From positions 1 to 14,631 of the forward strand of contig JACOVV010000037.1 of NCBI GenBank assembly GCA_016177145.1: a DNA stretch of 14,631 nt, written 5' to 3'. The notes below the pieces were generated by a model, which was given only the letters and a program-made list of their open reading frames with translations, was not told the origin of the DNA and ran no database searches. Of the stretch, positions 1-14,631 are shown one piece after another (position 1 is the stretch's first letter; the number at the start of each line of letters is the position of its first letter). A program made the translations under genes and the position numbers. Source of the DNA: Candidatus Omnitrophota bacterium. GTDB taxonomy: Bacteria; Omnitrophota; Gorgyraeia; JACOVV01.

Positions 1-45
1 CCAAAGGGGGAGAACCGTTACCGTTTAGAGGAGTTCCAGCGTTGA
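1..45 (+). CDS. C-terminal end of an upstream gene (partial)
   Basis: Frame 1 is open from the window edge and ends at a TGA at 43-45, giving a short tail PKGENRYRLEEFQR. The stop overlaps the TTG start of the next gene in the sequence TTGA. This matches the tight start/stop overlaps of the downstream genes, so an upstream member of the same operon is plausible. Fourteen codons are too few to identify a product, and the frame could be open by chance. Confidence 0.35.
   Translation, partial: PKGENRYRLEEFQR
27..33 (+). promoter_or_regulatory. Ribosome binding site of the dehydrogenase-like gene
   Basis: AGAGGAG is a strong Shine-Dalgarno-like sequence placed 8 bases before a TTG codon at 42. 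It decides the start: the non-ATG codon is favoured because it has this site, leads directly into a good signal-like N-terminus (MKRFFSLLLAIIVSS) and overlaps an upstream stop. Confidence 0.6.
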
Positions 46-3000
46 AACGTTTTTTCTCTCTACTTTTGGCGATTATTGTCAGCAGTAATATTTTGGGCGG
101 GTCATCTCCTTCCCTGCTGGCGCCTTATTCCATCGCTGTTCTTTCCTTAGACGAAGCCGCGCAGAGATTCTTTAGTCCATCCTCGACCCAAGAAGATCAT
201 CAAAGACTAGTCCAATTTTTATCAGAGCAGGGGGAAGAAGCGATCCATGGATTCGCCCGGCTCATTTGTGAAGACCGCAATATCTCCCAGGAAGAATTCG
301 GCCCTTACGTGATTCCTCCCTACCAGGGAAAGTACCCGCCGCGCGGACAGATCTCCATTGGAACAGACGGAAGACCCTATAACATTCCCAGCAGTGAGGG
401 AGAGTTCGCGCGCGAGCGGCTTCGCCTGATGGCGGAGCTGGCGGTCCAGCGGGCGCTGGGGAGAAAGGTCGTGACCGCTGTCGGGATCGGCCACGTTGGC
501 ACCGCGATGATGTGCGTTACTGCCGACGCGGTGATTGACACGCAGGGGAGGGAGTTGGGGATTGTCCGCAGCGAGACGCCGAAATTCCGCAGGCCGCTCT
601 CCGGCCAAGTGAACCCGTATTTCGTGGCGGGGTATCAACGGACCTCCACGCATTCTTCCTTTAAGGTGGATTTTGTGAACGCTGGAAGAGCTCCGATCGA
701 GTCTCAGGATGAGAGTGTTGAAAGAATCGTCAGGGAGTCACGAGAGAGGGGGAATTTAAGAGCGACCTTCCTGCCGGAGAGTTTATCGGCTTCCGATGTG
801 ATTCTCGTTGAGACGGAAGTCCATGTGCATAAACTGGGCAAGCAGGTCGAGCTGTCTCCTGTGGAATTAAAAGCCACCGAGTCATTACTCTCCCAGGTTG
901 GGAGCTTGGCCCACCCTAGTTCGCTGATCATCGTTGAAAGCACGGCAATGCCGGGGTATACCCAGAACGTGGTGGTCCCTCTGATAGATCAAAAGTTCCG
1001 CGAAAGAGGATTGATCCCGGAAGGCGAACACGCCAAAGTCGCTTACTCTCCTCAATTCCTCCAGCCGGGGCCTCAGTGGTTAAAGACCCTCATGGAATTC
1101 AAACGGTATGGACGCGGGGTCACGGACGCGGCGACCCATGACCTGGAGGATTATTTTAAGAATGTCGGGTTTAATTACGAGATCCCTGAGAGTGTCCAGT
1201 GGGCCGAGTTTGTCAAAATCGCGGATAACGCTCTCTTCTACAGCTTACTGGAGATTACGGTCGCTTTCCTGGAGTCGGCTGAAGAGATGGGGCTGGATGC
1301 CTGGAAAGCGATTGAGGCGATTATCTCTGTCCGTCCTGACCAGCGTGGTTTCCTGAAATTTGTCCCGCAGATGCAGGTGGGGGGGTATTGCATTCCAAAA
1401 GAACTGATCTTCGCGATTCGCGCCCTGACTTCCTATTACGGCGTCAGCGAATTGGAGATTATGGAAATTTTCAAGAGCCGGCTGGTGGCCGCCAATATGA
1501 GTGATTTCCGGGCGGAGAAGGTTGTGGACAAACATCTCCTGCTGGCTTTGTCGGAGCGGGGAATTCCGTTTGAAGGGGCCCGGCTGGGGATCCTGGGTGT
1601 CGCTTATAAAGGAGGGATTGCCGATACCCGGATGAGCGGATCCCAGCGGCTGGCGGTGAGGGCCGCCGATTATGGAATGAAAGTGGAAGCGACCGACCCC
1701 TTCAGCCGCTCCTGGTCTGAGATTCAAAATCTGAATCCTTACGACACGACTGACTGGTCCTATGGACTCAGAAACCAGCAGGCATTGCGGTCTCTTCAGG
1801 TTCGGTACCAGCCGGGGCCGGAAGGGTTTTTAGATTTCATCAGCCCTTATCAGGACGCGGTGGTGATTGCTACCCCTCATCACGCCTATTTTGGGGTCCA
1901 CCAGTCCCAGGAGAGCCGGACCGTTGAAGATTCTGAAGGGAACAAAACCGTTTTCCCCGGCCTTGACCCGGTCAAAGCCGCCGCCCGGATGCTCGGGCTC
2001 GAAGGCCGGGTGATCATGGACACGTTCAACTATCTTTCCGACGAAGATATCCGGATTTTCCTTGCCCTGGGATGGGATGTGAGGGCTTTGGGCAAGGGGC
2101 ATATTGATCTTTTGAAAACCAAGCTGACGCTCCAGGACAAAATAGGCGCGACGGAGAAATTGTTAAAGGAATTGGAACGGCTTTCGGATCCGGAAGTGTT
2201 GGCGCAGGCCAACAAAGAGGGCTCTGTTCTCCGGATGGAATGGATTACGGAAGCGATCCATGTGGCCCAGGCGAAATTGGCTTACCTGACCTCCCAGCGG
2301 GATATTCGCGGCGGAGAGGGAATCCAGAGGCGGCGGTTAAAATTGGAGTATTATCGCGCGAAGACAGAACAGGAACTGCGATTCGCTCATGAAGCGGAAC
2401 AGAAAGCCCTTCGGATGAAATTAAATTTCTTCAACCATGCGGACAACTACATTCGTCTTATCCAGGATCCTGACGCCACAGAGGGAAAGAAGAAAGCGGA
2501 GCGAGAACAGGTCAAGCGATTTTTAACCCGATATAAGAATCTGAAGGAGGAACAAATCAGGAACTCCTACAGAGGCCTCATGGAAAAGATCAGTAACCCA
2601 AGATGGCGAAGGGCCGGGGCGTTAATGATTCAAAATGCCCAGACGATGGGAGCGATCGGGCGAGTTCTTGGGGGAAGTCGTCTGACGGCCCCCGGTTCAG
2701 CAAGAGAGATCCAAAGGAGACTGGCTGAGTTGAAATATGTCGAAGACCAGCAGGTTTTGTTACGGAATGACTTGGATCGTTTCATCGAATCGTTGCCCCC
2801 CTTGTTCAGGAGTGAAATTAAGCAGGAGCTCGCGCGGACCGAACGCCGGCCGGATTTGGCGTTATCAGGGCGGTCTACCAGCAACAATCAGGTGGATTTG
2901 CTCCAACTGACAGAGAAAGAGAAATCCCTGGGGTGGCGGATTGTGATTCAGGATCGAGTGTATGAGGATCCGGAACAGGAAAAAGCGCGGGTGAATGATC

Positions 3001-5615
3001 GCAAGAAGCGAGGAGTTTATGTTATTTACCGTGACACGATCACGGATCCGGAGACAGGCCAGATGCTCGAATTTGTTCCCTTCACGATTTACACCCAGGA
3101 TTCCACGGGCAGAATCGTCAAGATGGAGGACCCCCAGGGTTTCTCAAGGGCCCGGACGGTGAAATGGCGCAAGGACGCGGAAGTCGGAAAAAATGCCGCG
3201 ATCAGTCCGCTCTGGTCCAAATTCATGGTCAAAGTGCCGCTCAATATCGTCGGCGTGGAGGGAAAGACCTTCACTCCGGAGTTGTTCACGAATTTTACCA
3301 AACTTCCTCTGGAGGACCGGGAATGGCTGATGCGCGGGGTTTTTGGAAGAGGGAAAATTCTCTCAACGGTCAAAGGAGAAAAGCAATCGCGCTACTACCT
3401 TCTGATGGACGTCAATCTGGATTCCGGCACGGTTGCCCGGGGCCGGGGAGGCATTTTGATGCGGGCCGATACCGATGAGCCGGTGGTGATCACAACCGAA
3501 GAAGGGACGGAGCAGGTGGTGATGTTAAAGGCCTCGGGAACGCATCTTCCGATGGACGCCTCTGGACTGAATCTCGATACAAGCCGTGTCGTCCAGGGGG
3601 GACGGGTGCTTCATGACCGCTACAGCTATACCGACCGGCAGACAGGTCAGCCGTTCGCGGAGATTGAACTTTACGATGGTCAATTGGTGGAATTCCCGCT
3701 CAAAGATGGGTTTGTCGTTTTCATCCGGGCAGGCAAGATTGAAACCATCCGGAATCATCAAGGAGACGTGGTGACGGCAGAGTTTGATCTTAGTTCCAGA
3801 GAGGATGAAAATGGTCTGGCTGTGACTGTCCAGGCAAAAGGGACCGGTGAATCTTATGGAATGGTTCGTTTCCAGGAAAAGAGAACGGTTTCGGCGGTCA
3901 TCCTGGGGACTCATCAAATTCGAGTCAGAGAGGGGACAATTGCCGAAATCCGGGAATTTGAAAGAGGAAACAGTGTTTTAGAACAGCTCGCGGTCAGTCA
4001 CGAAAAACTTTCCCGAACCAGCAAAACGGCGATGGGGCAGATCCCAGGCCACACGCGGGAGGCGGCGCCGGATGAAATTCTGAAAATGGAAGGGACTCCA
4101 CCGTACAATCAGGGAAAGACGGCGAGAGCACTGCTCCGGCTGGCTTTTCAGTATGAGGGATCTGATTTCCCATTGCAGCAGCTTTGGCGGGCGGTCCCTT
4201 CAACGGCGCGCCAGGGGTGGATGCTCTATGGAACAGAAGAGGATTTCGATCCGGTGAAAATGACGCGTGAAATGGCCTGGAACGCGGCCGAGGTATTGGG
4301 ACAGGACCTGGCTTCGGTGCATATCGCTCTCAACCCGGACAACATTTATTCCACCGGTTATTTTACCGACGAAGACAGCCAGATTCCTCTCTATAACGAG
4401 CGGGACCCTTACGGGGCGTTTTTCAAATATTTCGGGTATTACATGCAGTTGGCCTACTGGGATTTCCAGGGAGCCAAAGATAATAATTATGACACGATTG
4501 AGTTGTCCCGTTTTCCAGAATGGGTGAACGCTTTCCTGAACCATCTGCTGGAGACACGGCATGGAGGAATGCTGTTGGTCCGAAACCCTCAAAAATTCCA
4601 GCGGTTTCGCCAACTTGCCAAGGGATTGGTTTGGAATCCGAAAGGACTCGAAGAGTTTGAGAATGATTTCATGCGGACCCTCTGGCAGGAATACCTCGCT
4701 CATCATGTCCTGCGCAACCGGTTAGAGCGGGGGTATGACCCGACGCTGGAGAGCACTTATTCCGGCAGTGAGGCAAAGTATCGCTATGATCCGAATGACC
4801 CGAAAAAGGCGATGGAGTTTATTCAAAAACAAAGAGAACTATTGACCGTGGCCAAACGTTTGATCGAAGAAGAAAATTACGATCCGCTCTACCAGGGCAT
4901 TCAGCCTTTCGATTTCGAGGCGGCTTTTGAAGAGTTAGACCGTAAAGGACGATCGATTGACTCTCTTGAATTGTTAGTAGGTCGATCAGCTCAGGAGAAC
5001 AAATACGCGGACGTTTACCGTTTGAGTTTCTACCCGGAGCTCAAACCGAACGTTTTCTCACTGCTCGACTTTAACGCGTTAAAGAGGGGAGATCAAAAAT
5101 TGCGTTTAGTCATCGCGCAAGCGCTCCCGACCGTCTTGAAAGAAAAAGTGGATGTGGCTCTACAGCAGGGATTGTCCGCCACAGAATCGCGGGTCGGTCA
5201 GCTTTATTTTGAAGGGCTGGAAAAGTATCCCGAATGGGGCGATTTTCCGTTAGTTCCCGCTTATTTTGGCGCGTGGTTTTCCGGCGAGGGGCCGGCGGAG
5301 GTAACGACGCATCAGGATGCGGAGAGGGTTTACCGCCAGATGACGCTGGATTATCGTGAAACGCGGCAGGCGATCCCGCGAATTTCACAATTGGGAAATG
5401 TTACTTTCAGTGAACCGGCAGTGACTGAAGAAGGACTCGAATTTTCTTATCAACGAGAAGACGCGATCCAGGGACGGAGCGTGGTCCATGTGAAGGTTGA
5501 CCTGGGACAGCGGCGGGTGTTTATTATGGAGGGTTCTTCTACGGTATCTCCTCCTGCTTCTGCCGACGAAGGGGCGCGGCCGGCAGAGGAACAGGCGCTG
5601 GGGAGTTACCTATGA
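42..5615 (+). CDS. Giant protein with N-terminal UDP-glucose/GDP-mannose dehydrogenase-like module
   Basis: Residues 1-20 form a hydrophobic signal-like segment. Residues ~140-690 follow the nucleotide-sugar dehydrogenase fold, which oxidises a UDP- or GDP-sugar to the uronic acid with NAD+. The NAD-binding stretch is VGIGHVGTAM (147-156). The strand-loop ESTAMPGYT is at 299-307 and SPQFLQPG at 336-343. Lys392 and Asn396 lie in EFVKIADN. QVGGYCIPKE (445-454) places the catalytic Cys at 450, with Glu454 where the family usually has Asp. GVAYKGGIADTR (519-530) and the C-terminal UDP-binding-like domain (~600-690) follow. Family members are usually about 400-450 residues, so ~1150 residues are extra. 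Residues ~690-940 are charged and helical, probably coiled coil. Residues ~960-1330 look beta-rich. Residues ~1380-1860 are helical and aromatic-rich and not recognised. The insertion between the glycine loop and the next strand (~160-210) is also unusual. The stop overlaps the next start (ATGA). Family assignment of the N-terminal part is firm; substrate, location and role of the rest are unknown. Confidence 0.8.
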   Translation: MKRFFSLLLAIIVSSNILGGSSPSLLAPYSIAVLSLDEAAQRFFSPSSTQEDHQRLVQFLSEQGEEAIHGFARLICEDRNISQEEFGPYVIPPYQGKYPPRGQISIGTDGRPYNIPSSEGEFARERLRLMAELAVQRALGRKVVTAVGIGHVGTAMMCVTADAVIDTQGRELGIVRSETPKFRRPLSGQVNPYFVAGYQRTSTHSSFKVDFVNAGRAPIESQDESVERIVRESRERGNLRATFLPESLSASDVILVETEVHVHKLGKQVELSPVELKATESLLSQVGSLAHPSSLIIVESTAMPGYTQNVVVPLIDQKFRERGLIPEGEHAKVAYSPQFLQPGPQWLKTLMEFKRYGRGVTDAATHDLEDYFKNVGFNYEIPESVQWAEFVKIADNALFYSLLEITVAFLESAEEMGLDAWKAIEAIISVRPDQRGFLKFVPQMQVGGYCIPKELIFAIRALTSYYGVSELEIMEIFKSRLVAANMSDFRAEKVVDKHLLLALSERGIPFEGARLGILGVAYKGGIADTRMSGSQRLAVRAADYGMKVEATDPFSRSWSEIQNLNPYDTTDWSYGLRNQQALRSLQVRYQPGPEGFLDFISPYQDAVVIATPHHAYFGVHQSQESRTVEDSEGNKTVFPGLDPVKAAARMLGLEGRVIMDTFNYLSDEDIRIFLALGWDVRALGKGHIDLLKTKLTLQDKIGATEKLLKELERLSDPEVLAQANKEGSVLRMEWITEAIHVAQAKLAYLTSQRDIRGGEGIQRRRLKLEYYRAKTEQELRFAHEAEQKALRMKLNFFNHADNYIRLIQDPDATEGKKKAEREQVKRFLTRYKNLKEEQIRNSYRGLMEKISNPRWRRAGALMIQNAQTMGAIGRVLGGSRLTAPGSAREIQRRLAELKYVEDQQVLLRNDLDRFIESLPPLFRSEIKQELARTERRPDLALSGRSTSNNQVDLLQLTEKEKSLGWRIVIQDRVYEDPEQEKARVNDRKKRGVYVIYRDTITDPETGQMLEFVPFTIYTQDSTGRIVKMEDPQGFSRARTVKWRKDAEVGKNAAISPLWSKFMVKVPLNIVGVEGKTFTPELFTNFTKLPLEDREWLMRGVFGRGKILSTVKGEKQSRYYLLMDVNLDSGTVARGRGGILMRADTDEPVVITTEEGTEQVVMLKASGTHLPMDASGLNLDTSRVVQGGRVLHDRYSYTDRQTGQPFAEIELYDGQLVEFPLKDGFVVFIRAGKIETIRNHQGDVVTAEFDLSSREDENGLAVTVQAKGTGESYGMVRFQEKRTVSAVILGTHQIRVREGTIAEIREFERGNSVLEQLAVSHEKLSRTSKTAMGQIPGHTREAAPDEILKMEGTPPYNQGKTARALLRLAFQYEGSDFPLQQLWRAVPSTARQGWMLYGTEEDFDPVKMTREMAWNAAEVLGQDLASVHIALNPDNIYSTGYFTDEDSQIPLYNERDPYGAFFKYFGYYMQLAYWDFQGAKDNNYDTIELSRFPEWVNAFLNHLLETRHGGMLLVRNPQKFQRFRQLAKGLVWNPKGLEEFENDFMRTLWQEYLAHHVLRNRLERGYDPTLESTYSGSEAKYRYDPNDPKKAMEFIQKQRELLTVAKRLIEEENYDPLYQGIQPFDFEAAFEELDRKGRSIDSLELLVGRSAQENKYADVYRLSFYPELKPNVFSLLDFNALKRGDQKLRLVIAQALPTVLKEKVDVALQQGLSATESRVGQLYFEGLEKYPEWGDFPLVPAYFGAWFSGEGPAEVTTHQDAERVYRQMTLDYRETRQAIPRISQLGNVTFSEPAVTEEGLEFSYQREDAIQGRSVVHVKVDLGQRRVFIMEGSSTVSPPASADEGARPAEEQALGSYL

Positions 5616-8600
5616 AAATCATTCGCGCGCCCATTCTTTTTTTTCTGGCGCTTTCACAATTGTTTTATAATGTTTCTAACGCCTTCGTGGACTTGCCGAG
5701 GACTATCCCTTCGTCAACACTCGCTTCCCAGGCACAGCTTTCACCGGAATTAAACCAGTGGCGTCCGGAATTTGAACCGATTGCCGTATTAGGGCGAGAC
5801 TTAGGGCCGGAGTACGGGATTACTCTCCCGGAAGAAACTGCCGGACTAAAAGCATTCCTCTCATCGGCCATTCAGAGAATTCCGGAAGATCAATTGGATG
5901 GTTTTCTAGTTGCGCTGGCCCAGGCGATGAGCCGGGTGGATTCTTATTGGCAAAAGCCGATCGCGGAGCATATTAAGAAGGAAGTCTCCGCTCGTCCTTT
6001 AAAGACGATCGCCACGGTCATTCAGGCAAGTTCGCCTTGGTTGAACAACCGGACGTATGAGTCGCTTCTGGTCGGCGAAGAGGGGAGAGCGCTGAGCGGT
6101 CAGGAAATTCTTCAATGGGCGCTGGGATTAGAGCAATTCTACACGAGTCAAGCCGCTCAAAAAAATCCGTATCACCGGATCCGCGCGCTCATCTATCTGC
6201 ACCATCTTTACCGCTTCAGTTTGATCGGAAAAGGGTTTCATCATCCGGCCGTGATTCCCAAAGAAGGGGTCGAGGCCTTCAATGAGGGAGAAAGTGAGCG
6301 GGCGATTGAGATTTACCAGCAGGTCATGCGGGAACAGGGCCCCAGTGAAGCGCTGTTTACCGCCCTCGCGGCCGGCTACCGGAAGCTCGCCTGGCAGCAG
6401 GCGCTGGAAATTGTCCAGGACGCGGTCAAGAAAAGCGATCCCCGGAATGGCCCGCTGTTTCAAACAGAATCGCTGGAACAGTATTCCCTGAGAATTGCTG
6501 AAGTTTTCGCGGCAGGCGACGCGCAGACAAATCTAACTCCTATCGGTCAGGAAGAGAGCTCCGTGCGGGCCGATCCCACCAAAACACTCTGGTCGGATAT
6601 TTTCTTCTTGGCGATGCTCCTTCCCGAATGGGCCAAAGTGCTGAATTTTTCTTCCTTTTTGGCGGTAGATCACTCCGTTGGAAATGGGTCGGAAGACTCT
6701 ACCCCGCCAGGACGGCCGGTGGAGGTATTTGTCCGTAAAATCAAGGAACCGGTCATTCGGCTGGTTTCCCTTGACCTGAAGACGAGTAAAGATGTGGAGA
6801 GTCTTGAAGATTTATTCAATTTCACCAGCGATTATTTGGGATTGCTCAAAGCGGCAGTGATTGCTTCGGGGATTGTCCCACCTTCTTTTCAAGGAGAGTC
6901 CATTGAGTTAAAAGAAGTGCTTCGTCGTTTCCTGGGAGAAGAAGGGGGAATCGAACTTGTCACGTATGTCCATGGAATTCCCAAGGGCTCTCGTCTGGCG
7001 GTCAGCACGACATTGTTATCGGCGATTATTGCCAAACTCATGCGGTTTAGCGGGCAGTTCAATGAGCAGGAAGGTTCCCTGGCCGAAGAAGAACTGCGCC
7101 TGTTGGTCTCCCGGACTCTGTTGGCGGAGTGGCTGGGGGGATCCGGCGGCGGGTTTCAGGATACCGCGGGACCTCACCCCGGGATCCGGACGGTAGAAGC
7201 GATACTCAGTCAACCCGGTGATCCCGAACATGGCATCAGCCGGGGGCGGTTGGTTCCCTCTTTTAACCGTTTCAGTCCTCAGGAAGAAGAAAGAGCGATT
7301 GCCGCGCTCCGGGAATCTTTGGTGATGGTTCATGGCGGTTTGTCCCAAAACGTCGGGCCCATTCTGCAGGAAGTCACCGAAGAATTTCTGGTTCGCTCGG
7401 AGAGGGCGTGGAAGGCGCGTCAGGGGAGCGCTGTTTTGTTTCCGCAGATCGTCGAAGCGCTCAAAAGAGGAGATATGAAAGAATTAGGACGCTTGACGGA
7501 GCAGGATTGGGAGTTGACCCAGGAAGTCATCCCGCGTGTAAACAACGCCTACACGCAAACTCTGCTCGATCGCTTAAAAGAACATTTCGGCGAAGATTTC
7601 TGGGGGTTTGTCATGCTGGGGGGGGCGTCCACCGGCGGGATGTCGTTCCTGGTGAATCCCGCGCGGAAACAGGAATTTAAAAAAGTCGTCTTTCGGTTTA
7701 TGCGTGAATTGAAAGACCAAATGAAAGACGGTTATCCCTTCGCGATTGATCCGGTAGTCTACAGTTTTGACGTGGATCGAGAAGGAATTCAAGCCCATGT
7801 GGTTACGGAAGGACTGATGCCGCGGGAGTACTACGCTTTTGTCCTGGCGCAAATCGTCCAGCGATGGGAGCGCTCCGTAAACGATCAAGAAAAAACAGAG
7901 GTGGAAGATTGGATCCATGCCCATACCAATGAATTGAGGCGTCTCTTTGAACGGAAACAGCGGGAGAGAGAAGGAAAGCTGGAGTGGTCTGGGGAGGATC
8001 AACATAGATTATTAGATATTGACGACATAAGATCACTTTATGAGATCATGTTTGAGACCACGTTAAGCGTCGGAACAGCCGGTTTCCAATTAAGTCAGGG
8101 CGATGATCAAGCAGTCCAGGAGAGTCTTGACCTCTATGGGTTTGATCCGGAGAGTTTTGACGCCAATGTCAGCGCGCTGGAAAATGGCGGGATCGGAGTC
8201 CGGCAGAACCGTTTGCCGGCGACGGCGCGGTTAAAAGATATCTCCAACGGAGATGTGGTCTCTCTGGAAGGAGAAGAGCCGGGTGTTTCATCCCAGACAA
8301 GCCCGCTTCTTCAAGGAGAAGTCGGCGTGATCATCTTAGCGGGGGGCAAGGGGGGGCGGTATACCGGCGGAGAAGAAGCGGTGAAAGCCCTCGCTGAAGC
8401 GTTTGATGGAAAGTCCTTCATGGAAATCAATCTGTCATCGCTGGAGGCAAGGCAGGGGGATGGAAGAGAGGAAAATATCCCAGTCGCCGTCACAACCAGT
8501 TTCCTGACAGACCATCAGATCAGAGGTTGGTTGTCCCGCCAGGGATGGATAGAGGAGGGGGCGCATGGAGTCAGAGTGTATTTTTCGACAGGGAGGTTTG

Positions 8601-9643
8601 TTTCACAAAAGGTCAATCCCACACAAATAGATTTAGAATTTGCTCTCTTAGAAGAACCCCGCGAGCGGGCATTAACGCCTCAGCAGCGAAAAATTCAGAA
8701 AGACGCCGCTGGTTCCATGATCCATTGGGTTGACCAAAGAACAGAAGAGACCGGTCGAATTTATCGTCATAACACACCTCCCCAGCGGCTGGTTCCGCCA
8801 GGACATCTCTACGAAATCCCCAGTATGATGGTCAATGGGGCTCTGGCCAGGATGCTGTTGGAGAACCCGCGGATGAAAGAAGTATTTGTGAAGGGGGTTG
8901 ACGTTATTGGAGCGGTCCCTACGGATGAGCTGATTCAAGAACACCGTCAGAGCGGCCGGGTCATGTCGGGGTTAGTCGTCAGCCGCTGGATGGGGGATGA
9001 GGGGAGCGCTTTGGTCGTTGACGAGGAGGGAAATCCGTATTATCTCCCCGGGTTCGCCATGCCGGTGAAAGGAATGGAGTACGATTTCAAATATTATGAT
9101 TCCAACGCCTATGTCATCAGCATTGATGAATTTCTTCTTCTCTTTGGCCTCACCCGCCGGGATTTATTCGATTCACTTGGAGAAGATGAATCTGCCAGTC
9201 GGGCAAAGGAAAAAATATTGGAGGGAATCCGGAGAGTGGCGTCACTGGTGCCTACTTATGTCGTCCTCAAAGAGACCGCCGAACGCTGGGGACTGGGACA
9301 AAAAGACATGTATCTCACCGCGCAGTTTGAGAAGCTCTTTGGCGATTTGACTCATCCCAGGATATGGCGGCGTTCTTTGGAACAGATCCGTGAACAAGTC
9401 TCCAGAGAGGAATGGAATCAGGTATTCCTGCCGCTATGGGAAAAACTGGAACAAAACGGCTGGAGACCGGTACAATATATCAAAGTGAATCGGCTGGCGG
9501 GACAGAATTTCAAACATGTCAGTGAGCTCCCCGACTTGGAGAAAGACGGGACCCGGAGATTTATCGGCTCCTTGGTCCGTCGTGACCAGACAGAGACGAT
9601 GGAGACCGCTAGAAGAAACGATAGAATCGCCCAACAATTATGA
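5612..9643 (+). CDS. Bifunctional-looking protein: fucokinase-like GHMP kinase plus UDPGP-type sugar-1-phosphate uridylyltransferase
   Basis: An N-terminal hydrophobic segment (APILFFLALSQLFYNVSNAF, 6-25) looks like a signal peptide or anchor. Residues ~45-300 are helical, with a TPR-like patch near 223-275. Residues ~315-690 resemble L-fucokinase-type GHMP kinases: VRADPTKTLWSD (318-329) aligns with the VRIDLAGGWSD region, PKGSRLAVST (457-466) with the PxGSGLGTSS phosphate loop, GGSGGGFQDTAG (509-520) with the GGGWQDQ motif, and LGGASTGGMSF (669-679) with the C-terminal GAGGGG loop. Several loop glycines are replaced (Arg461, Ala463), so activity is uncertain. Residues ~900-1320 resemble UDPGP-family uridylyltransferases: LAGGKGGR (909-916), VAVTTSFLTDHQI (958-970), VPPGHLYEIP (1061-1070), a GVDVIGAVPTDELI segment (1095-1108) and a DSNAYVIS strand (1163-1170). 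Such enzymes make UDP-sugars from sugar-1-phosphate and UTP. The gene overlaps both neighbours by ATGA. GGGGAG sits 6 bases before the start. Fold assignments are by motif reading; the sugar is unknown. Confidence 0.65.
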   Translation: MKIIRAPILFFLALSQLFYNVSNAFVDLPRTIPSSTLASQAQLSPELNQWRPEFEPIAVLGRDLGPEYGITLPEETAGLKAFLSSAIQRIPEDQLDGFLVALAQAMSRVDSYWQKPIAEHIKKEVSARPLKTIATVIQASSPWLNNRTYESLLVGEEGRALSGQEILQWALGLEQFYTSQAAQKNPYHRIRALIYLHHLYRFSLIGKGFHHPAVIPKEGVEAFNEGESERAIEIYQQVMREQGPSEALFTALAAGYRKLAWQQALEIVQDAVKKSDPRNGPLFQTESLEQYSLRIAEVFAAGDAQTNLTPIGQEESSVRADPTKTLWSDIFFLAMLLPEWAKVLNFSSFLAVDHSVGNGSEDSTPPGRPVEVFVRKIKEPVIRLVSLDLKTSKDVESLEDLFNFTSDYLGLLKAAVIASGIVPPSFQGESIELKEVLRRFLGEEGGIELVTYVHGIPKGSRLAVSTTLLSAIIAKLMRFSGQFNEQEGSLAEEELRLLVSRTLLAEWLGGSGGGFQDTAGPHPGIRTVEAILSQPGDPEHGISRGRLVPSFNRFSPQEEERAIAALRESLVMVHGGLSQNVGPILQEVTEEFLVRSERAWKARQGSAVLFPQIVEALKRGDMKELGRLTEQDWELTQEVIPRVNNAYTQTLLDRLKEHFGEDFWGFVMLGGASTGGMSFLVNPARKQEFKKVVFRFMRELKDQMKDGYPFAIDPVVYSFDVDREGIQAHVVTEGLMPREYYAFVLAQIVQRWERSVNDQEKTEVEDWIHAHTNELRRLFERKQREREGKLEWSGEDQHRLLDIDDIRSLYEIMFETTLSVGTAGFQLSQGDDQAVQESLDLYGFDPESFDANVSALENGGIGVRQNRLPATARLKDISNGDVVSLEGEEPGVSSQTSPLLQGEVGVIILAGGKGGRYTGGEEAVKALAEAFDGKSFMEINLSSLEARQGDGREENIPVAVTTSFLTDHQIRGWLSRQGWIEEGAHGVRVYFSTGRFVSQKVNPTQIDLEFALLEEPRERALTPQQRKIQKDAAGSMIHWVDQRTEETGRIYRHNTPPQRLVPPGHLYEIPSMMVNGALARMLLENPRMKEVFVKGVDVIGAVPTDELIQEHRQSGRVMSGLVVSRWMGDEGSALVVDEEGNPYYLPGFAMPVKGMEYDFKYYDSNAYVISIDEFLLLFGLTRRDLFDSLGEDESASRAKEKILEGIRRVASLVPTYVVLKETAERWGLGQKDMYLTAQFEKLFGDLTHPRIWRRSLEQIREQVSREEWNQVFLPLWEKLEQNGWRPVQYIKVNRLAGQNFKHVSELPDLEKDGTRRFIGSLVRRDQTETMETARRNDRIAQQL

Positions 9644-10593
9644 AGCGAATCCAACGACCGCTGACACTATTATTGCTCGGCTCTTTCCCCCTTCTTTTAA
9701 GCGCGCCCGTTCTTTTTCAGGAGTATTTCTATCTCCACCCGCCGTATGCCAGCGATGATTCGCGCAGTTTAAGAAATATCGTGTACGCGCGATACGGCGC
9801 CCCCGAAGGAGTCATGCGAGGACTTGAAGCGGAAAATAGCGCTTTTCAAGGATATCTCATTCCTAGAATCAAATCGTTAATCCTCAGGGCGAGATTAGAA
9901 GGGAGAAAAGCGAAGTTCTTAATCATCGGCATTGGGGGCGGGAGAATCATTGACGACATGCGCAGACGCTTTCCCGGACTGGAACTTGTTTTTATTAACA
10001 AAGAACCCATTCATGAAGTGATCACTCCGGAAGAATATTTCGATTATATTCATCAAAAACAGATCGCCCCTGATAGGCGTAAAGAAGAAGTGGAAGACTT
10101 CTTTGAATTTTTAACTAGTCCAGCGCATTTGATTATCCACGATGTGGAGGGGGGATTGCCTCATTTCACGGATGGGGAATTGGAGGGTGTCTTAGTGGCG
10201 TCTGTTGTTCTTAAATACATCAGCTATCAGGGCCGCCAGAAGCTTTATTCAGAGATACAGAGAGTTGTTAGGATAGGGGGAGAAGTGTTTCTCAACGGTT
10301 TTGTTGATTGTGGAAGAACCGAGCCGGGGGACGAAAATGATTATTTCTTGACGTTGGATGAAACTTATCAACTCACGCTTCGCCATGTCAGACTGTTATA
10401 CGATGCCGCTAATGATGGAGTCCTTGAATATGACCACGCAACTCTCACGTGGATTAATAAAGGACCTGAAGAGCCATTTCCCGCGAGTCAATTTCATGGG
10501 ATAGGGTTTGAGAAAATCAGAAATGGCCGGTGGCGTCAAGGTGGACTTCCCCTTCCCAAGCTAGAGGGAATTTTCGAAGAGCGCTCATTATGA
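9640..10593 (+). CDS. SAM-dependent methyltransferase-like protein with N-terminal membrane or signal segment
   Basis: The 317-residue product starts with a basic-hydrophobic segment (MKRIQRPLTLLLLGSFPLLL) typical of a signal peptide or single anchor. Residues ~90-225 read as a class I methyltransferase core. KFLIIGIGGGRIIDDM (92-107) is the SAM-binding glycine loop, and ELVFINKEP (115-123) sits where the acidic end of strand 2 is expected but lacks the usual Asp/Glu directly after the strand. HDVEGGLPHFTD (167-178) and VLKYISYQGRQKLYSEIQRV (190-209) match the D-LPF-D and Ei-RVL-pGG region, ending in RIGGEVFLNGF. The remaining ~95 residues are not assigned. The gene has ATGA overlaps at both ends and no obvious Shine-Dalgarno sequence, so translation probably depends on coupling. 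In this context a sugar or glycan substrate is possible, but that is inference. It could also be a diverged, inactive Rossmann protein. Confidence 0.6.
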   Translation: MKRIQRPLTLLLLGSFPLLLSAPVLFQEYFYLHPPYASDDSRSLRNIVYARYGAPEGVMRGLEAENSAFQGYLIPRIKSLILRARLEGRKAKFLIIGIGGGRIIDDMRRRFPGLELVFINKEPIHEVITPEEYFDYIHQKQIAPDRRKEEVEDFFEFLTSPAHLIIHDVEGGLPHFTDGELEGVLVASVVLKYISYQGRQKLYSEIQRVVRIGGEVFLNGFVDCGRTEPGDENDYFLTLDETYQLTLRHVRLLYDAANDGVLEYDHATLTWINKGPEEPFPASQFHGIGFEKIRNGRWRQGGLPLPKLEGIFEERSL

Positions 10594-12695
10594 GTCGGGA
10601 AAGAACAGTTAGAATCAAAATGAAATGGGTCTGGTTTTTATGCCTGCTTCCGGCGGCGGTAGGGGCGAATGATTATTCGCCCCTACGTTATAATATTCCT
10701 TTCTCCCTCGCTGTCCCGGGCCCAGCCGCGCGAACCCGGACTGCGCTCTCTTTTTCAGGACCGCTCAGGCCGCAGACGTTTCTTACGGCAGCTTCTCAGA
10801 CGGCTGCTGATCTAGAGCAGGGGACTCTTGGCGATATCACGGTGGGGTCTAATATTAAGGAAATGACTCCCGACATGCGGCGGCTTTATGACGATTCCGA
10901 CCATGACTTGACAGCAGAAGCAGAGAACGCCCCCCTGGAAGTTGTCCGCAGCTATGAGGACCCGGCTGAGAGACGCCACGATTTACCGGGCGCTTTAGGG
11001 ATCATTCAAACGATGAAAAAGTCCAACCGATGGGCGAAGCCGGCGGCTGTCGTCATGATTCTGGATGGAGGGTTTAAAACCCGTTTTGCGTACAAAGTCC
11101 TTTCCGAAGGATGGGCAGGGCTGACTCGTCTGCCGGGGAAGCGTTATCGTAATCTGCGCCATATCGTTCTGGTCAATATGCTGACGATCCTGCGGATGCT
11201 CCCCGAAGGATTAGAGCGATACGTCGGGTTAGCGTCCAGCGATAATTTTATCTTCTTGGGACAGGCGACACTCGGAAGGATCCTGCTCAACGACAGCCGA
11301 GGAATCCGCCCGCTCTTAGAGCGGGCCAGCGTCGTCAAAGGGGCGGCGCGAATGAAGCTGTTGACGGAAAGAGATCGTCAACGACTAGAGCGCTTAAAGA
11401 CACAGCCGGAAAAATGGACGGAAGAAGAGGTCAAAGCGGCTTTAGCGGAGCGATGGACGGATGTGGCTCGACAGATCTCAGAGGCAAAACTAGAGCAGGT
11501 CGGAGTGATAGGGGTTGACAGCGCCGGAAAAATGACCGGATTTTTGGAAAAGGCAAATCGCTTAGAGATTATTCGTTTTTCCTATCAACATGGAGGAGTT
11601 CTTTACAAAAACGCTTTCCAGGAGTTTTTGGACAAACGGTTTGCCGCTCGTCTGATGGAGCGATTCATCGCTGAAAAAGCCGAGACCGACGGCTTCCAGA
11701 CATTGGACCAGTTCCCCATCGGCTATATGCAGACGGTCTATCAGTCGCAGTTTACCAGTCCCCGGGAGTGGGACCGGTTATGCCCCTCAAAAGAGAACCT
11801 GAAAGTGGCTCCACAAGACTGGAGGCGTATTCGAGAGATAGTTAAAGAGTTGTTCGAAGAAGAACAGCAGCAGGGACGGGGGGAGGTTTGTGTTTTCGAT
11901 TTCGGCCAGGGGCATCTAAGGGCGCACCTGGGAGATTTAGAGGAGTGGAATACCTTTCTAAACTGGGCGGTCACCAACCCATTGATTCGAGAAATGTTGG
12001 GGATGAGAGTCACTGGAAAACTGGACCCAGCCACGGTTCGTTTGATTCGTCCCGATGACGTGGATTTTTCCGATGGCACTAAGATTCGTATTTCACAAAA
12101 TGCCTACGTCGAGAGGACAATCATCAGTGGTGGGGGGGCACTAATCGTGGAAGACGGAGCGTTGCTCAGCTCGGTGAGAATCCATATCCCGGCAGGGAAG
12201 GAGTTGGTAGTCAGACGCGGCGTCAAAATCATGGAGAGCGAGCTTGACCTCTCCCAGATGGGAGTCGAATTAGAACCCAATACGATAGTCGAGCGGGTTT
12301 TCCCGGTTCCTGGAGTCACCGGCCGATTGATCGCTCGCAGTGAAGAACGGGTAACTGTTTTAAAAATCGGAGGTCAGGCGCATCTCGCGAGAAACCTGAG
12401 ACCCATTCAATTCGCGGGAAAAAATGTTGGAGAGCTGATTCCTAGCCAGGAGCAGTGGCTGGAGTTGCAAAGAAGACACCCCGAGTATTTAAGCCAGTAT
12501 CCATACGAGAAAGTGAAGGGTCGAGAGCTCATCGAACTGGCGGATCAAAATTTAGGCGGTCTCTCCTTTCGTCCGGCACAGCGGCAAGTGGATTATCTCT
12601 GGATGCAGGAACAGGTCAAGCGTCTGCAGGAAGGAATTGACGCGGATGTGACGAGGAAACATCCTTCTGACCCGGGCGTGTTAGAATCATTGTAG
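10590..12695 (+). CDS. Sugar nucleotidyltransferase-like protein with C-terminal beta-helix region (fucose-1-phosphate guanylyltransferase-like)
   Basis: The ATG at 10590 is chosen because it overlaps the previous stop as ATGA, like the other junctions; an ATG at 10620 would give a shorter signal peptide, and a farther in-frame ATG at 10530 lies inside the previous gene. With the chosen start the protein has 701 residues. Residues 9-26 form a signal peptide (core WVWFLCLLPAAVGA), the end of which is encoded by a palindromic repeat. Residues ~150-470 look like a nucleotidyltransferase: VVMILDGGFKTRF (154-166) in the position of the LAGGxGTR loop, VGLASSDNFIFLG (212-224) like a sugar-pyrophosphorylase SGD strand, and GVIGVDSAGKMTGFLEK (305-321), which closely mirrors the GVFvlD-G-V-FLqKP stretch of fucose-1-phosphate guanylyltransferases. 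Residues ~490-570 alternate short strands and turns (AYVERTIISGGGALIVEDGA), suggesting a left-handed beta helix. The first glycine loop is altered (Asp159 replaces Ala), so activity is uncertain. The stop codon lies in a half copy of the palindrome. It could be another sugar-1-phosphate nucleotidyltransferase. Confidence 0.55.
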   Translation: MSRERTVRIKMKWVWFLCLLPAAVGANDYSPLRYNIPFSLAVPGPAARTRTALSFSGPLRPQTFLTAASQTAADLEQGTLGDITVGSNIKEMTPDMRRLYDDSDHDLTAEAENAPLEVVRSYEDPAERRHDLPGALGIIQTMKKSNRWAKPAAVVMILDGGFKTRFAYKVLSEGWAGLTRLPGKRYRNLRHIVLVNMLTILRMLPEGLERYVGLASSDNFIFLGQATLGRILLNDSRGIRPLLERASVVKGAARMKLLTERDRQRLERLKTQPEKWTEEEVKAALAERWTDVARQISEAKLEQVGVIGVDSAGKMTGFLEKANRLEIIRFSYQHGGVLYKNAFQEFLDKRFAARLMERFIAEKAETDGFQTLDQFPIGYMQTVYQSQFTSPREWDRLCPSKENLKVAPQDWRRIREIVKELFEEEQQQGRGEVCVFDFGQGHLRAHLGDLEEWNTFLNWAVTNPLIREMLGMRVTGKLDPATVRLIRPDDVDFSDGTKIRISQNAYVERTIISGGGALIVEDGALLSSVRIHIPAGKELVVRRGVKIMESELDLSQMGVELEPNTIVERVFPVPGVTGRLIARSEERVTVLKIGGQAHLARNLRPIQFAGKNVGELIPSQEQWLELQRRHPEYLSQYPYEKVKGRELIELADQNLGGLSFRPAQRQVDYLWMQEQVKRLQEGIDADVTRKHPSDPGVLESL
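10659..10686. repeat. Palindromic element copy 1, inside the signal-peptide coding region
   Basis: A 28-base inverted repeat with 12-base perfect arms (GTAGGGGCGAAT and ATTCGCCCCTAC) around GATT. It is read in frame as VGANDYSPL plus the first base of an Arg codon (residues 24-33 of the nucleotidyltransferase-like gene). Val-Gly-Ala falls at the expected signal-peptidase I site. Confidence 0.9.
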
Positions 12696-12737
12696 GGGGC
12701 ACATTGCGTAGGGGCACATTGCAATGTGCCCCCCTAC
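12692..12737. repeat. Palindromic element copy 2, compound: half copy plus full copy
   Basis: Bases 12692-12707 are a left half (GTAGGGGGCACATTGC). They are followed directly by a full palindrome at 12708-12737 with arms GTAGGGGCACATTGC and GCAATGTGCCCCCCTAC; the right arm has two extra C. The half copy can pair with the same right arm, so two alternative hairpins are possible. The TAG at 12693-12695 in the half copy is the stop of the preceding gene. No T-run follows the hairpin, so it is not a standard intrinsic terminator. Confidence 0.85.
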
Positions 12738-12742
12738 GTTCC

Positions 12743-12771
12743 TTGACGTAGACGATGTGATGGGGTAGACT
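12743..12771 (+). promoter_or_regulatory. Possible sigma70-type promoter for the DUF218 gene
   Basis: TTGACG (12743-12748) and TAGACT (12766-12771) are separated by 17 bases and match 5/6 and 4/6 of the -35 and -10 consensus. Transcription would start only a few bases before the ATG at 12781, giving an almost leaderless message. This fits the absence of a good ribosome binding site there. The gap (12696-12780) is the only one of this size between genes in the window. Matches of this quality occur by chance. Confidence 0.3.
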
Positions 12772-12780
12772 TGCCGTACG

Positions 12781-14574
12781 ATGTTACGTTCCCTTTGCCC
12801 TGTTTTGTCCGGTTTTCTGGTGATGGTCGCCGTAGGGGCGAATAATCATTCGCCCCTACGAAACGTCCACCGGCAAAACAATACACCTCTATCTCTATCC
12901 GCCCCTTCTCCGATTGATGAAAATGATCTTTCACCCAATCATCGTTTTTCCTGGCGGGAAGAATTAAGTCAACACACCCTCCGCTTGGTTTCATTTCTAG
13001 CCGAACGGGAACCGTTGCCCGATCAGGCCGATTTAATCATGGTTCTGGGGAGCGATGATCTCCAGACCGCGATCGAGGCGGCGCGTCTCTATCGCAACGG
13101 CCTGGCTCCCAAAATTTTGGTTTCCGGCGGCATTGGACGATTGACCCCCGGATTGATGGAGAAATTCCGTGATTACCTTAAAAACGTAGGGGCACATGGC
13201 CATGTGCCCCTACAACAGATTGAGGAGACAGAAGATGGCCAGGTAGCGCCCGAGGCGGTCATTTATAAAAAGGTGCTGATGTTGGAAGGGGTGCCTGAAA
13301 AAGATATTTTAGTCGAGGATCAATCCACCAACACCGGCGAAAATGTCCGCTTCAGCCGCGCGCTGCTGGAGAACGTAGGGGCGAATAATCATTCGCCCCT
13401 ACAGATTCGATCCGTAATTCTCCTTCAGACACCGATCTTGCAGAAGAGAGCCAAAGCGATTTTCCTGAAGCAATTTGGTTTGCCCGGTGTCACGGTAACC
13501 AGTTACGCGCCGTACCTGCCGGATGTCGGCGCGATGAACGAGGAGGAGTTAATTCGTACTGCCGAGTTGGCCGTTGGGGAGATGCAGCGGCTTCCTAAAT
13601 ATGCCAAACCGCTTGAAGAAGGGGGTCCCAAAGGAGGACCGTTCAATGGTCCCGTTCCGATTCCTTCCTCTTTATTAGAGAGTCAACAGCGGGTGACCCA
13701 GGCCTTGGCGATTCGTTCCTACAGCGAAAAAGTCTATGATTGGACAATGTCTATCGGCGCTTTCCCTGACGGGCTTGAAAAAATTTGGCGGGGGTTTGTC
13801 CGGCAGGAAGAGGGTTCCTGGATTCCAAAACGATTTGAAGCGGGCGGTATCCTTTTAACCGCGTATCGTTTTAAGCGGCATGACTTCCTGCAAAATACAC
13901 GGGAAGTTTTCGAACCGATGGTCCGGGAGATCGCGGCGGTGTTTCCTGGAGAAGAGAACAAAGTCGGAGTCCATTGGGCAGCGCCGGGGGAAGATCATCT
14001 GGCAGTTTCCGTGATTCAGGAAGACCCGGAAGTATTGGATGAAGATCAGAAAGAAAAGTTTGTCCGCGTGAACCCGGAAGAGGTCGAGGCCGTCGGAGAA
14101 GCGCTCCAAGAGATCACCCGATTCCAGCCGGTCGCTCGTTTGGGACTGGTCGGTTTTGCCCCCGCCGCCAACGGGGGGATGATCGCTCTTTTCCGCGACA
14201 GAACCGGGGAGTTCACCGCTCTGCGCGAGACGATCACTAAACGGGCCAATGAAGTCACTGGCGGGAAAGTTGTCAGCCGCCCCAAGCTGATTAATATGAC
14301 GGTGGGACGGATTTTGGAACTCCCTTATTCTTCGGATCCGGCCACCGCGCGAGACCAGAAAAAAAGAGTTTTAGTCATCATCCAAAAATACACCCAGCGG
14401 CTCAGGGATCAGTGGGGGCTCTATTCGCCGAGTCAGGATGTGGTGGTGGATGAAATCACTTACGGTTGGGACCGCCAGTGGAATTTTTACGATTTTGAAC
14501 GGATTGGGGATTTCCCATTATTGCGGCAGGAGGATGACAAATCCGGCGATTTCACCGTCCATCGAGCATTATGA
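12781..14574 (+). CDS. DUF218 (YdcF/ElyC/SanA-like) domain protein with extra C-terminal domain
   Basis: ATG 12781 is the first usable start after an in-frame TAG at 12766. The 597-residue product begins with a signal peptide (~1-20), again ending in palindrome-encoded VGA. Residues ~80-270 are a DUF218 domain, a family linked to envelope polysaccharide and peptidoglycan precursor metabolism: ADLIMVLGS (83-91), the AARLYRNGLAPKILVSGGIG strand-loop (100-119), EDQSTNTGENV (179-189) with the conserved S-NT-EN signature, and SVILLQTPILQKRA (211-224). Two palindrome-encoded peptides lie inside the domain, at residues 136-145 and 199-208. A Gly/Pro-rich linker (~279-297) leads to a domain of ~290 residues. 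Its DHLAVSVI (405-412) and KLINMTVGRIL (502-512) recall the two HxT strands of 2H phosphoesterases (LigT-like), but with the first Thr replaced by Ala and the second His by Asn. That resemblance is weak. The DUF218 call is solid; the C-terminal function is unknown. Confidence 0.72.
   Translation: MLRSLCPVLSGFLVMVAVGANNHSPLRNVHRQNNTPLSLSAPSPIDENDLSPNHRFSWREELSQHTLRLVSFLAEREPLPDQADLIMVLGSDDLQTAIEAARLYRNGLAPKILVSGGIGRLTPGLMEKFRDYLKNVGAHGHVPLQQIEETEDGQVAPEAVIYKKVLMLEGVPEKDILVEDQSTNTGENVRFSRALLENVGANNHSPLQIRSVILLQTPILQKRAKAIFLKQFGLPGVTVTSYAPYLPDVGAMNEEELIRTAELAVGEMQRLPKYAKPLEEGGPKGGPFNGPVPIPSSLLESQQRVTQALAIRSYSEKVYDWTMSIGAFPDGLEKIWRGFVRQEEGSWIPKRFEAGGILLTAYRFKRHDFLQNTREVFEPMVREIAAVFPGEENKVGVHWAAPGEDHLAVSVIQEDPEVLDEDQKEKFVRVNPEEVEAVGEALQEITRFQPVARLGLVGFAPAANGGMIALFRDRTGEFTALRETITKRANEVTGGKVVSRPKLINMTVGRILELPYSSDPATARDQKKRVLVIIQKYTQRLRDQWGLYSPSQDVVVDEITYGWDRQWNFYDFERIGDFPLLRQEDDKSGDFTVHRAL
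12832..12859. repeat. Palindromic element copy 3, at the signal-peptide end of the DUF218 gene
   Basis: A 28-base inverted repeat with 12-base arms GTAGGGGCGAAT/ATTCGCCCCTAC around AATC. It is the same core class as copy 1 but with the reverse-complement centre, so the two sit in opposite orientation. It is read as VGANNHSPL plus part of Arg (residues 18-27), again with VGA at the likely cleavage site. Confidence 0.9.
13186..13213. repeat. Palindromic element copy 4, inside the DUF218 domain
   Basis: A 28-base perfect palindrome with 14-base arms (GTAGGGGCACATGG and its complement). It is read as VGAHGHVPL plus the first base of a Gln codon (residues 136-145). AAC occurs on both sides, a possible short target duplication. 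Confidence 0.9.
13375..13402. repeat. Palindromic element copy 5, inside the DUF218 domain
   Basis: A 28-base repeat identical in sequence to copy 3. It is read as VGANNHSPL plus the first base of a Gln codon (residues 199-208), between the helix ending ALLEN and the strand IRSVILLQ. Confidence 0.9.
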
Positions 14575-14580
14575 GGCGAT

Positions 14581-14609
14581 GTAGGGGCGAACGGCCCGTT
14601 CGCCCCTAC
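14581..14609. repeat. Palindromic element copy 6, intergenic
   Basis: A 29-base inverted repeat with 14-base arms (GTAGGGGCGAACGG/CCGTTCGCCCCTAC) around a single C, beginning six bases after the stop of the DUF218 gene. GAT flanks both sides. No T-run follows, so a terminator role is not supported. Confidence 0.88.
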
Positions 14610-14625
14610 GATATGATCATCAGTC

Positions 14626-14631
14626 TTGACA
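14626..14631 (+). promoter_or_regulatory. Consensus -35-like hexamer at the window edge
   Basis: TTGACA is the last six bases of the window. It could be the -35 box of a promoter for a following gene, but the -10 region lies outside and the match alone is weak evidence. Confidence 0.2.

Follow-up and report, generated by a model that had tools for sequence, protein, structure and literature searches.

The genome of a Candidatus Omnitrophota bacterium (GenBank assembly GCA_016177145.1) carries a family of short palindromes that begin with GTAG on both strands. Several copies lie in a 14,631-nt stretch of contig JACOVV010000037.1 (the window, positions 1 to 14,631 of the forward strand). We propose that these symmetric elements are double-tagged derivatives of GTAG REPs (REP is short for repetitive extragenic palindrome) and that they were most likely spread by a RAYT (REP-associated tyrosine transposase). 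We think that this is probably, but by no means certainly, correct. In the mechanism that we envision, one REP arm (the GTAG, a GGGC, and half of the core) would have been joined to its own reverse complement. The outcome would be a mostly loopless palindrome with outward GTAG tags on both strands, which is the tag layout of a REPIN (a REP doublet forming a hairpin) shrunk to about 28 nt. The elements would be non-autonomous and would spread as single strands via a RAYT (an HUH tyrosine transposase) that recognizes GTAG plus a hairpin, and they would insert without evident target duplication. Within genes, only frame-keeping copies in tolerant loops would survive, and these would be translated as VGAxxxxPL or VGAGFKPAPT.

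A genome-wide search by arm pattern, which was the check suggested when the family was first noticed in the window, supports the existence of a large family. The pattern GTAGGGGC-(11-13 nt)-GCCCCTAC has 76 copies in this genome (1.23 Mb in 237 contigs, 60% complete), while the same pattern read backwards has none. All 76 copies were recovered in the sequence stretches that we analysed. The symmetric element is 27-29 nt long with a core of 11-13 nt; its GTAG pairs with CTAC, and GTAG is carried by both strands. The core types are few: GGGTTTAAAACCC and its relatives, GAATNATNATTC, ACATTGCAATGT, GAACGGCCGTTC, and GGGGTAACCCC. The core has no mismatched pair in 64 of the 76 copies. Target duplication was not evident: matching 2-mers were found at 5 of 70 copies (4.4 expected), 3-mers at 3 (1.1 expected), and 4-mers at none (0.3 expected). 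In this respect the symmetric element differs from a miniature inverted-repeat transposable element (MITE). Of the 140 bases immediately 5' of GTAG, 108 are C or T. Five contigs of this genome (C10, C49, C60, C127, and C179) start at an element or 2 nt before one, so copies may cause breaks in the assembly, and the true number may exceed 76.

The stretches from this genome also contain 75 one-ended GTAG hairpins (identified by a loose rule; a few of them are damaged symmetric copies or chance matches). Most of these (57/75) have an oppositely oriented GTAG hairpin, either one-ended or symmetric, within 150 nt. By a stricter rule, there are 48 one-ended repeats, and the core contains a mismatch in 42 of them. 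Five of the six mismatch-free cores recur in symmetric copies of this genome, so these repeats resemble symmetric copies whose CTAC has been damaged. Furthermore, the one-ended cores GCAATTTATTGC and GCGATTTATCGC have mirror-completed counterparts, GCAATTAATTGC and GCGATTAATCGC, which are symmetric in the same genome. This suggests that the symmetric form arose when the tagged half was copied across to the opposite side. Symmetric copies are solitary in 51 of 76 cases, and 11 of 76 have an inward-facing arm on each side at most 150 nt away, a position comparable to that of a REPIN spacer. Under one rule for both, an open reading frame (ORF) of at least 200 amino acids spans 33 of the 75 one-ended and 46 of the 78 symmetric repeats, which is not a significant difference (p = 0.08).

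The genome encodes a RAYT (G000:C73:5273-5842, where G000 is this genome; open over 210 amino acids), which matches a profile of four RAYTs with E = 5.7e-66. The NCBIfam model for REP-associated tyrosine transposases (NF047646) gives E = 6e-16 and 58.6 bits, which is below its cut-off of 80, and no PDB sequence matched the protein at E = 0.01. One-ended REPs adjoin this resident RAYT and lie within it. To detect RAYTs in other genomes, PF01797 (Y1_Tnp) was rejected: it is present in 231 of 285 genomes of the phylum, which makes it uninformative, and in 16 of 17 element genomes, and it missed our own genome (the resident RAYT scores 16.9 bits). It was replaced by the profile (A3) from the four RAYTs, all of which bear REPs. 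The element's pattern is present in 50 of the 285 genomes, with up to 102 copies. With hits to A3 at E <= 1e-20, 23 genomes have both the element and an A3-type RAYT, 27 have only the element, 28 have only the RAYT, and 207 have neither (p = 2.2e-7, which, like the next two p values, ignores kinship among the genomes). At E = 1e-3, the corresponding counts are 30, 20, 64, and 171 (p = 2.2e-5), and if this genome (G000) and the two genomes of the phylum that contributed sequences to the profile (G038 and G123) are removed, the counts at 1e-20 are 20, 27, 28, and 207 (p = 3.8e-6). Genomes with at least 10 copies have a RAYT in 6 of 7 cases at 1e-20 and in 7 of 7 cases at 1e-3. Among the 21 element-bearing genomes that were searched, our own included, 16 have an A3-type RAYT.

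GTAG hairpins also occur at some individual RAYT loci. Hairpins of the GTAGGGG type, mostly one-ended, lie near 9 of 40 RAYT-like loci in element genomes. In G254, two short RAYTs are bracketed by inverted GTAGGGGC REPs. Two cores are shared by the symmetric and the one-ended form. ACGGCATGCCGT is found in all 7 of the listed places of the 25 copies in G123, and also in REPs beside RAYTs (L054 and L214). A Nitrospirota RAYT has the other, GAATAATTATTC, as a one-ended REP at its 3' end; the gene reads through GTAGGGGCGAATAATTATTCGCCC there, so that the protein ends in VGANNYSPF, and it has REP-like peptides inside. Judging by coordinates, RAYT matches in G203 (C20:107316) and G169 (C42:316) contain symmetric copies, and overall, few RAYTs have such copies within or near them. 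We also noticed that RAYT proteins (our own at L371:929-1558 and those of L346, L051, and L215) contain translated REP-like stretches just ahead of an APT..FK motif.

The closest known relatives are the GTAG REPs. According to PMC3733652, the GTAG REP super-family has a GTAG end, palindromes of 20-40 nt, subfamilies with complementary stem changes, inverted dimers, intragenic copies, an association with RAYTs, and a presence in several phyla, all of which resemble what we see. In contrast, the GTAG of those REPs is unpaired and at one end, and there is a loop (PMC3733652). In the symmetric element, GTAG is paired at each end and a loop is usually absent; it has the many short GTAG-ended copies of a REP but not the unpaired single tag or the loop. 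The GTAG REPs are mostly extragenic (PMC3733652); the symmetric element may be less so, as 24 or more of its 76 copies are in genes. Going by the text of the same paper, an equivalent of the symmetric element may be among the 24 listed families (PMC3733652). As in REPtrons (RAYT or TnpA-REP genes with their REPs; PMC8266576), our RAYT has REPs beside and inside it, and the RAYTs of G254 lie between inverted REPs. REPINs (Bertels and Rainey 2011) also have outward REP ends in inverted order, but a REPIN comprises two whole REPs and a spacer, while the symmetric element is about 28 nt in total and is often in genes (PMC3116915). A deletion within a REPIN that yields a long palindrome is mentioned in the same paper (PMC3116915). 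We infer that the symmetric form came from a REP or a REPIN and that it is moved by a RAYT. We recognized no description of the symmetric element in the literature, either by topic or by arm sequence (the matches to which were covered in part).

Within the window, there are five exact GTAGGGGC-N-GCCCCTAC palindromes, as compared to none in 200 shuffles. The copies and their host ORFs are:

10659..10686, + strand: 28-nt symmetric palindrome with core GAATGATTATTC, read as VGANDYSPL near the N terminus of ORF 10530-12695
12692..12707, + strand: 16-nt partial copy, GTAGGGGGCACATTGC, whose TAG is the stop codon of ORF 10530-12695
12708..12737, + strand: copy with core ACATTGCAATGT and two extra C ahead of CTAC, between the two host ORFs
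12832..12859, + strand: 28-nt palindrome with core GAATAATCATTC, read as VGANNHSPL near the N terminus of the DUF218 protein
13186..13213, + strand: 28-nt palindrome with core ACATGGCCATGT, read as VGAHGHVPL within the DUF218 domain
13375..13402, + strand: 28-nt palindrome with core GAATAATCATTC, read as VGANNHSPL within the DUF218 domain, which is 6 residues longer here than E. coli YdcF
14581..14609, + strand: 29-nt palindrome with core GAACGGCCCGTTC, starting 7 nt 3' of the DUF218 stop codon
10530..12695, + strand: host ORF without a Pfam match, carrying the copy at 10659
12781..14574, + strand: host ORF, DUF218 (YdcF-like), with three translated copies (12832, 13186, and 13375)

An earlier sequence-only reading of the window had reported six full copies and a half copy within 4 kb and none in the preceding 10.6 kb. 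This is borne out: five copies are exact, the sixth has the two extra C, the half copy is the 16-nt partial one, and the pattern search finds no copy 5' of 10659. As also reported, all four copies that lie in ORFs are read in the phase GTA GGG GC, and the other two phases of the GAAT-core copies contain stops. Five of the six full copies were folded as single-stranded DNA and gave -10.3 to -15.6 kcal/mol (z of -4.1 to -8.7); the sixth is identical to one of these five. REP ends that supply stop codons, as the partial copy at 12692 does, have been reported before (PMC3733652). When 7,993 candidates from a database of 5.8 billion proteins were scored against the DUF218 protein, only the protein itself was found; its DUF218 domain nevertheless matches Pfam and E. 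coli YdcF. Because of this lack of homologues, we ran the alignment test on other host genes instead. By eye, the two N-terminal copies (in the regions 10621-10690 and 12781-12870) sit at the possible end of a signal peptide (..LLPAAVGA and ..VMVAVGA), so their VGA might serve as a signal peptidase site.

Across the genome, 45 of the 76 copies are wholly inside ORFs of at least 200 amino acids, with 36 in phase 0 (GTA GGG), 9 in phase 1, and none in phase 2, in which the element reads TAG. These counts alone prove nothing, because simulated random insertion without any frame rule gave a spanning ORF of this length in 36-66% of trials (36-42% for the GAAT-core element). Also, 85% of random genome positions are inside such ORFs. 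Sharing a phase is a weak argument for GAAT cores as well, since these have just one open phase. After this control, we dropped the raw count of ORF phases as proof of in-frame selection; frame-keeping must instead be shown by homology.

We tabulated 43 of the 45 sites against Pfam spans (the other two copies are at contig ends). At 24 of the 43 sites, homology is in frame on both sides of the element: a match continues through the copy at 19 sites, and matches flank the copy at 5 sites. (In the TPR gene of L026, we treated separate TPR matches as a single span. For the second site in GuaA, the spanning Pfam match, to QueC, is weak at 2e-4, and an alignment to PDB chains supports the site.) The hosts include GuaA (twice), GatB, PurH, RtcB, TrpE (twice), RecG, and LpxK, and by Pfam they are largely housekeeping genes. 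Of the other 19 sites, some lie close to the end of an ORF, some adjoin a single domain, and some are in ORFs without domains; several of the 19 may be non-coding. The 24 homology-backed copies comprise 22 in phase 0 and 2 in phase 1. Where both phases are open, the VGAxxxxPL phase outnumbers the other by 13 to 2 at homology-backed sites (p = 0.007), although this subset was picked after the data had been seen, and by 20 to 9 across all long ORFs (p = 0.06). The raw phase bias is mostly stop avoidance; it does not support the selection that the sequence-only reading saw in it, and a significant phase preference appears solely in the post hoc subset.

That reading had also expected each insertion to bring two more bases, because 28 is not a multiple of three. 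We found otherwise: the frame is kept by elements of 28 nt (18 of the 24 sites) and of 29 nt (6 of 24), with no evident target duplication. Moreover, at most sites where it could be measured, the net gain relative to homologues is about 3-7 residues, rather than the roughly 10 expected from an insert of 28 or 29 nt. (Distant homologues vary in loop length for other reasons too.) The gain is 4 residues in RtcB and in CobT, 6 in GatB, 7 at the second TrpE site, 7 and 6 in RecG, 6 at the DUF218 copy at 13375 (relative to YdcF), and 0 and 4 in GcvT. Relative to a genome of the same genus, it is 6 residues (18 nt) in the SAM-hydroxide adenosyltransferase and 5 residues (15 nt) in PurH, which is also longer by 9 and 5 than two PDB chains. 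At the first GuaA site, the change is +3, +5, +3, and +7 relative to homologues P0005-P0008 and +4 and -1 relative to two PDB chains (-1 being E. coli); at the second, it is +4 relative to P0006-P0008, -1 relative to P0005, +6 relative to P0004, and +4 relative to both PDB chains. LpxK (whose homologues are too variable), the first TrpE site, and the DUF218 copy at 13186 gave no clear value. Because most gains are below 10 residues, it is probable that insertion displaced native residues or that some were trimmed afterwards.

When host proteins were aligned with their homologues, the peptide was absent at the corresponding place in most of them, which agrees with the original view of it as an insertion. 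At the first GuaA site, homologues with 83-84% identity have, at the protein level, VGANNYSPL (P0004) or GGHGGPPL (P0003) where this genome has VGARCNVPL, and at the second, P0003 has a partial RHAVPL (also at the protein level). Some GuaA homologues with about 64% identity are named Omnitrophica or Omnitrophota. At the LpxK site, homologues P0123 and P0129 (alignment A2) carry other repeat-like peptides (VILSEAP.. and STHSPSTSSGSFAQ), which suggests that there may be further families of protein-coding repeats.

To our knowledge, most descriptions of high-frequency protein-coding palindromes come from Rickettsia. Rickettsia palindromic elements (RPEs) occur in frame in many unrelated metabolic genes (PMC10969869), and the homology-backed sites in this genome (24/43) appear to be of the same kind. 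The first RPEs to be reported were about 150 bp long (PMC10969869), and RPE-4 and RPE-6 carry CGTC tags, with CGTC repeats being unlinked to transposase genes (PMC3733652). In contrast, the symmetric element is 27-29 nt, has a GTAG tag, is linked to RAYTs, and occurs in many phyla. So the comparison to RPEs in the sequence-only reading holds insofar as this is an in-frame family in real conserved proteins, but the element is not of the Rickettsia type. Nor is its sequence unrelated to known elements, as had been thought: it is a relative of the GTAG REPs, and a RAYT and one-ended GTAG REPs are in the same genome.

A genome from the same genus (G285) has 11 copies. We made nine site comparisons, using 20 contigs of G285 plus its element loci, and found the element in both genomes at three places. 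In a glycosyltransferase 9 gene, the core is GAATGATCATTC in one genome and GAATCATTATTC in the other. In a TPR gene, it is ACGGCATGCCGT versus GGCGCATGCCTC, with full complementarity lost. In the N-terminal part of a uracil-DNA glycosylase ORF, it is ACATGGCCATGT versus GTATTGCAATAC, with an offset of about 16 nt and partial copies adjoining. Cores might change in place by template-switch correction or by conversion. G285 lacks the element at the PurH site, at the SAM-transferase site, and at two intergenic sites. (The ninth comparison, for the copy at 13186 in the window, was a spurious alignment and was disregarded.) In an O-antigen ligase gene, the position of the element in L126:1205-1233 is occupied in G285 (L191) by an unrelated palindrome, GGGTTAGCC..GGCTAACCC, as if this site might tolerate several palindrome families.

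The element is also widespread. With one genome per species, the exact GAAT-core element is in at least 117 stretches. Among the 80 that were listed, the carriers are Bacteroidota, Chloroflexota (SAR202, Dehalococcoidia, and Chloroflexus), Desulfacinum, Polyangiaceae, Sandaracinaceae, Planctomycetota, Zixibacteria, Endomicrobiia, Nitrospirae, Synergistaceae, Uhrbacteria, Fibrobacteria, Spirochaetia, Geomonas, and Proteobacteria. Among these listed matches, about a dozen phylum names bear the same element, core included; most carriers are metagenome-assembled genomes (MAGs), in which a stray contig could add a name, and for some carriers the phylum is our assumption from the name. Copies of the general pattern number 112, 102, 27, 35, 2, 101, 13, 3, and 10 in nine of these genomes, with none for the control. 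The genome with 112 copies is from a cultured strain, Desulfacinum infernum DSM 9756. In the 80 listed loci, 34 of 90 copies are spanned by ORFs of at least 200 amino acids, and 29 of these are in phase 0 (which is usually the sole open phase for GAAT cores). Nine stretches with the GAAT-core element are from viral contigs (IMG/VR; L334-L342).

Several observations weigh against a RAYT as the agent of spread. In the known substrates of RAYTs, a GTAG tag adjoins a hairpin that has a loop or bulge (PMC8266576), and the symmetric element differs, with its paired GTAG and 64 mismatch-free cores; the passages of PMC8266576 that were consulted contain no description of RAYT activity on a two-tagged loopless palindrome. 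The REPs at the resident RAYT are of a looped CTTGTG type rather than symmetric. In G254, which has 102 copies, the cores beside the RAYTs are unlike the symmetric cores in its 7 listed places, and 31 of the 40 RAYT-like loci have no GTAGGGG hairpin in the flank examined. The association across genomes is biased, since the RAYTs in the A3 profile were chosen for their adjacent REPs, and 27 of the 50 element genomes lack an A3-type RAYT at E = 1e-20 (20 of 50 at 1e-3). Of the 21 genomes searched, those with no A3-type RAYT are G285 (11 copies), G012 (8), G294 (35), G295 (2), and G297 (13); gaps in MAGs or divergent RAYTs could explain some of these. Finally, we saw no recent insertion in the comparison to G285, whose matches are no more than 70-85% identical.

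If RAYTs have no role, then the palindromes could arise and change by template switching during replication at imperfect REP hairpins, with one half copied from the other, and spread by recombination or DNA uptake. This would account for the mismatch-free cores, for cores that vary at shared or neighbouring sites yet stay self-complementary (ACATGGCCATGT and GTATTGCAATAC in the uracil-DNA glycosylase ORF), for the looped REP cores with mirror-completed partners, and for element-rich genomes without a detectable RAYT. By itself, however, template switching leaves the dispersed sites in unrelated genes (76 copies here and 11 in G285) and the link to RAYTs unexplained, and we consider this explanation rather unlikely. 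We give less credence still to a separate mobile family of the RPE kind, moved by another enzyme and starting with GTAG by coincidence: this fits the in-frame copies in many housekeeping genes, as for RPEs (PMC10969869), but the arm and cores recur at some RAYT loci, and RPEs differ in their tags (PMC3733652) and original length (PMC10969869).

The remaining explanations involve selection rather than mobility. The strong predicted folding of the window copies, the copy directly 3' of a stop codon, and the roles suggested for REPs (PMC3733652) would fit a mainly regulatory hairpin, such as a terminator, an mRNA stabiliser, or a gyrase site. This is very unlikely given the 24 or more copies in genes and the sevenfold difference in copy number within a genus (both genomes being incomplete). 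That the peptide is native and selected, with the palindrome being incidental, strikes us as scarcely credible: the phase preference at homology-backed sites and the glycosyltransferase 9 site that is kept in two species are as expected, but most homologues lack the peptide, unrelated proteins have it, and this DNA also occurs in intergenic sequence and in genomes bearing many different phylum names. Double-tagged GTAG REPs spread by a RAYT remain our preferred explanation. The element resembles a genomic parasite, and at the same time it seems to provide new protein sequence.

More tentatively, and with our doubts exceeding our confidence, we suggest that double-tagged loopless REPs might be a distinct and minimal class of transposon, about 28 nt long and strand-neutral. 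This class would have crossed at least a dozen phyla with arm and core intact, and would regularly become fixed in essential enzymes as a loop peptide that replaces native residues, with the core rewritten in place while the arms and the frame are kept. One type of element, with identical arms and core, recurs across genomes with many phylum names, and core enzymes (GuaA, GatB, PurH, RtcB, RecG, and TrpE) contain it in frame. If our proposal is true, then RAYT systems are a widely distributed source of short insertions in proteins. As D. infernum DSM 9756 is cultured, mobilisation and protein tolerance are directly testable.

Elsewhere in the window, positions 42-5615 hold an ORF of 1,857 amino acids with UDP-glucose dehydrogenase domains in its first third. 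Next to it, positions 5612-9643 hold an ORF of 1,343 amino acids without a Pfam match.

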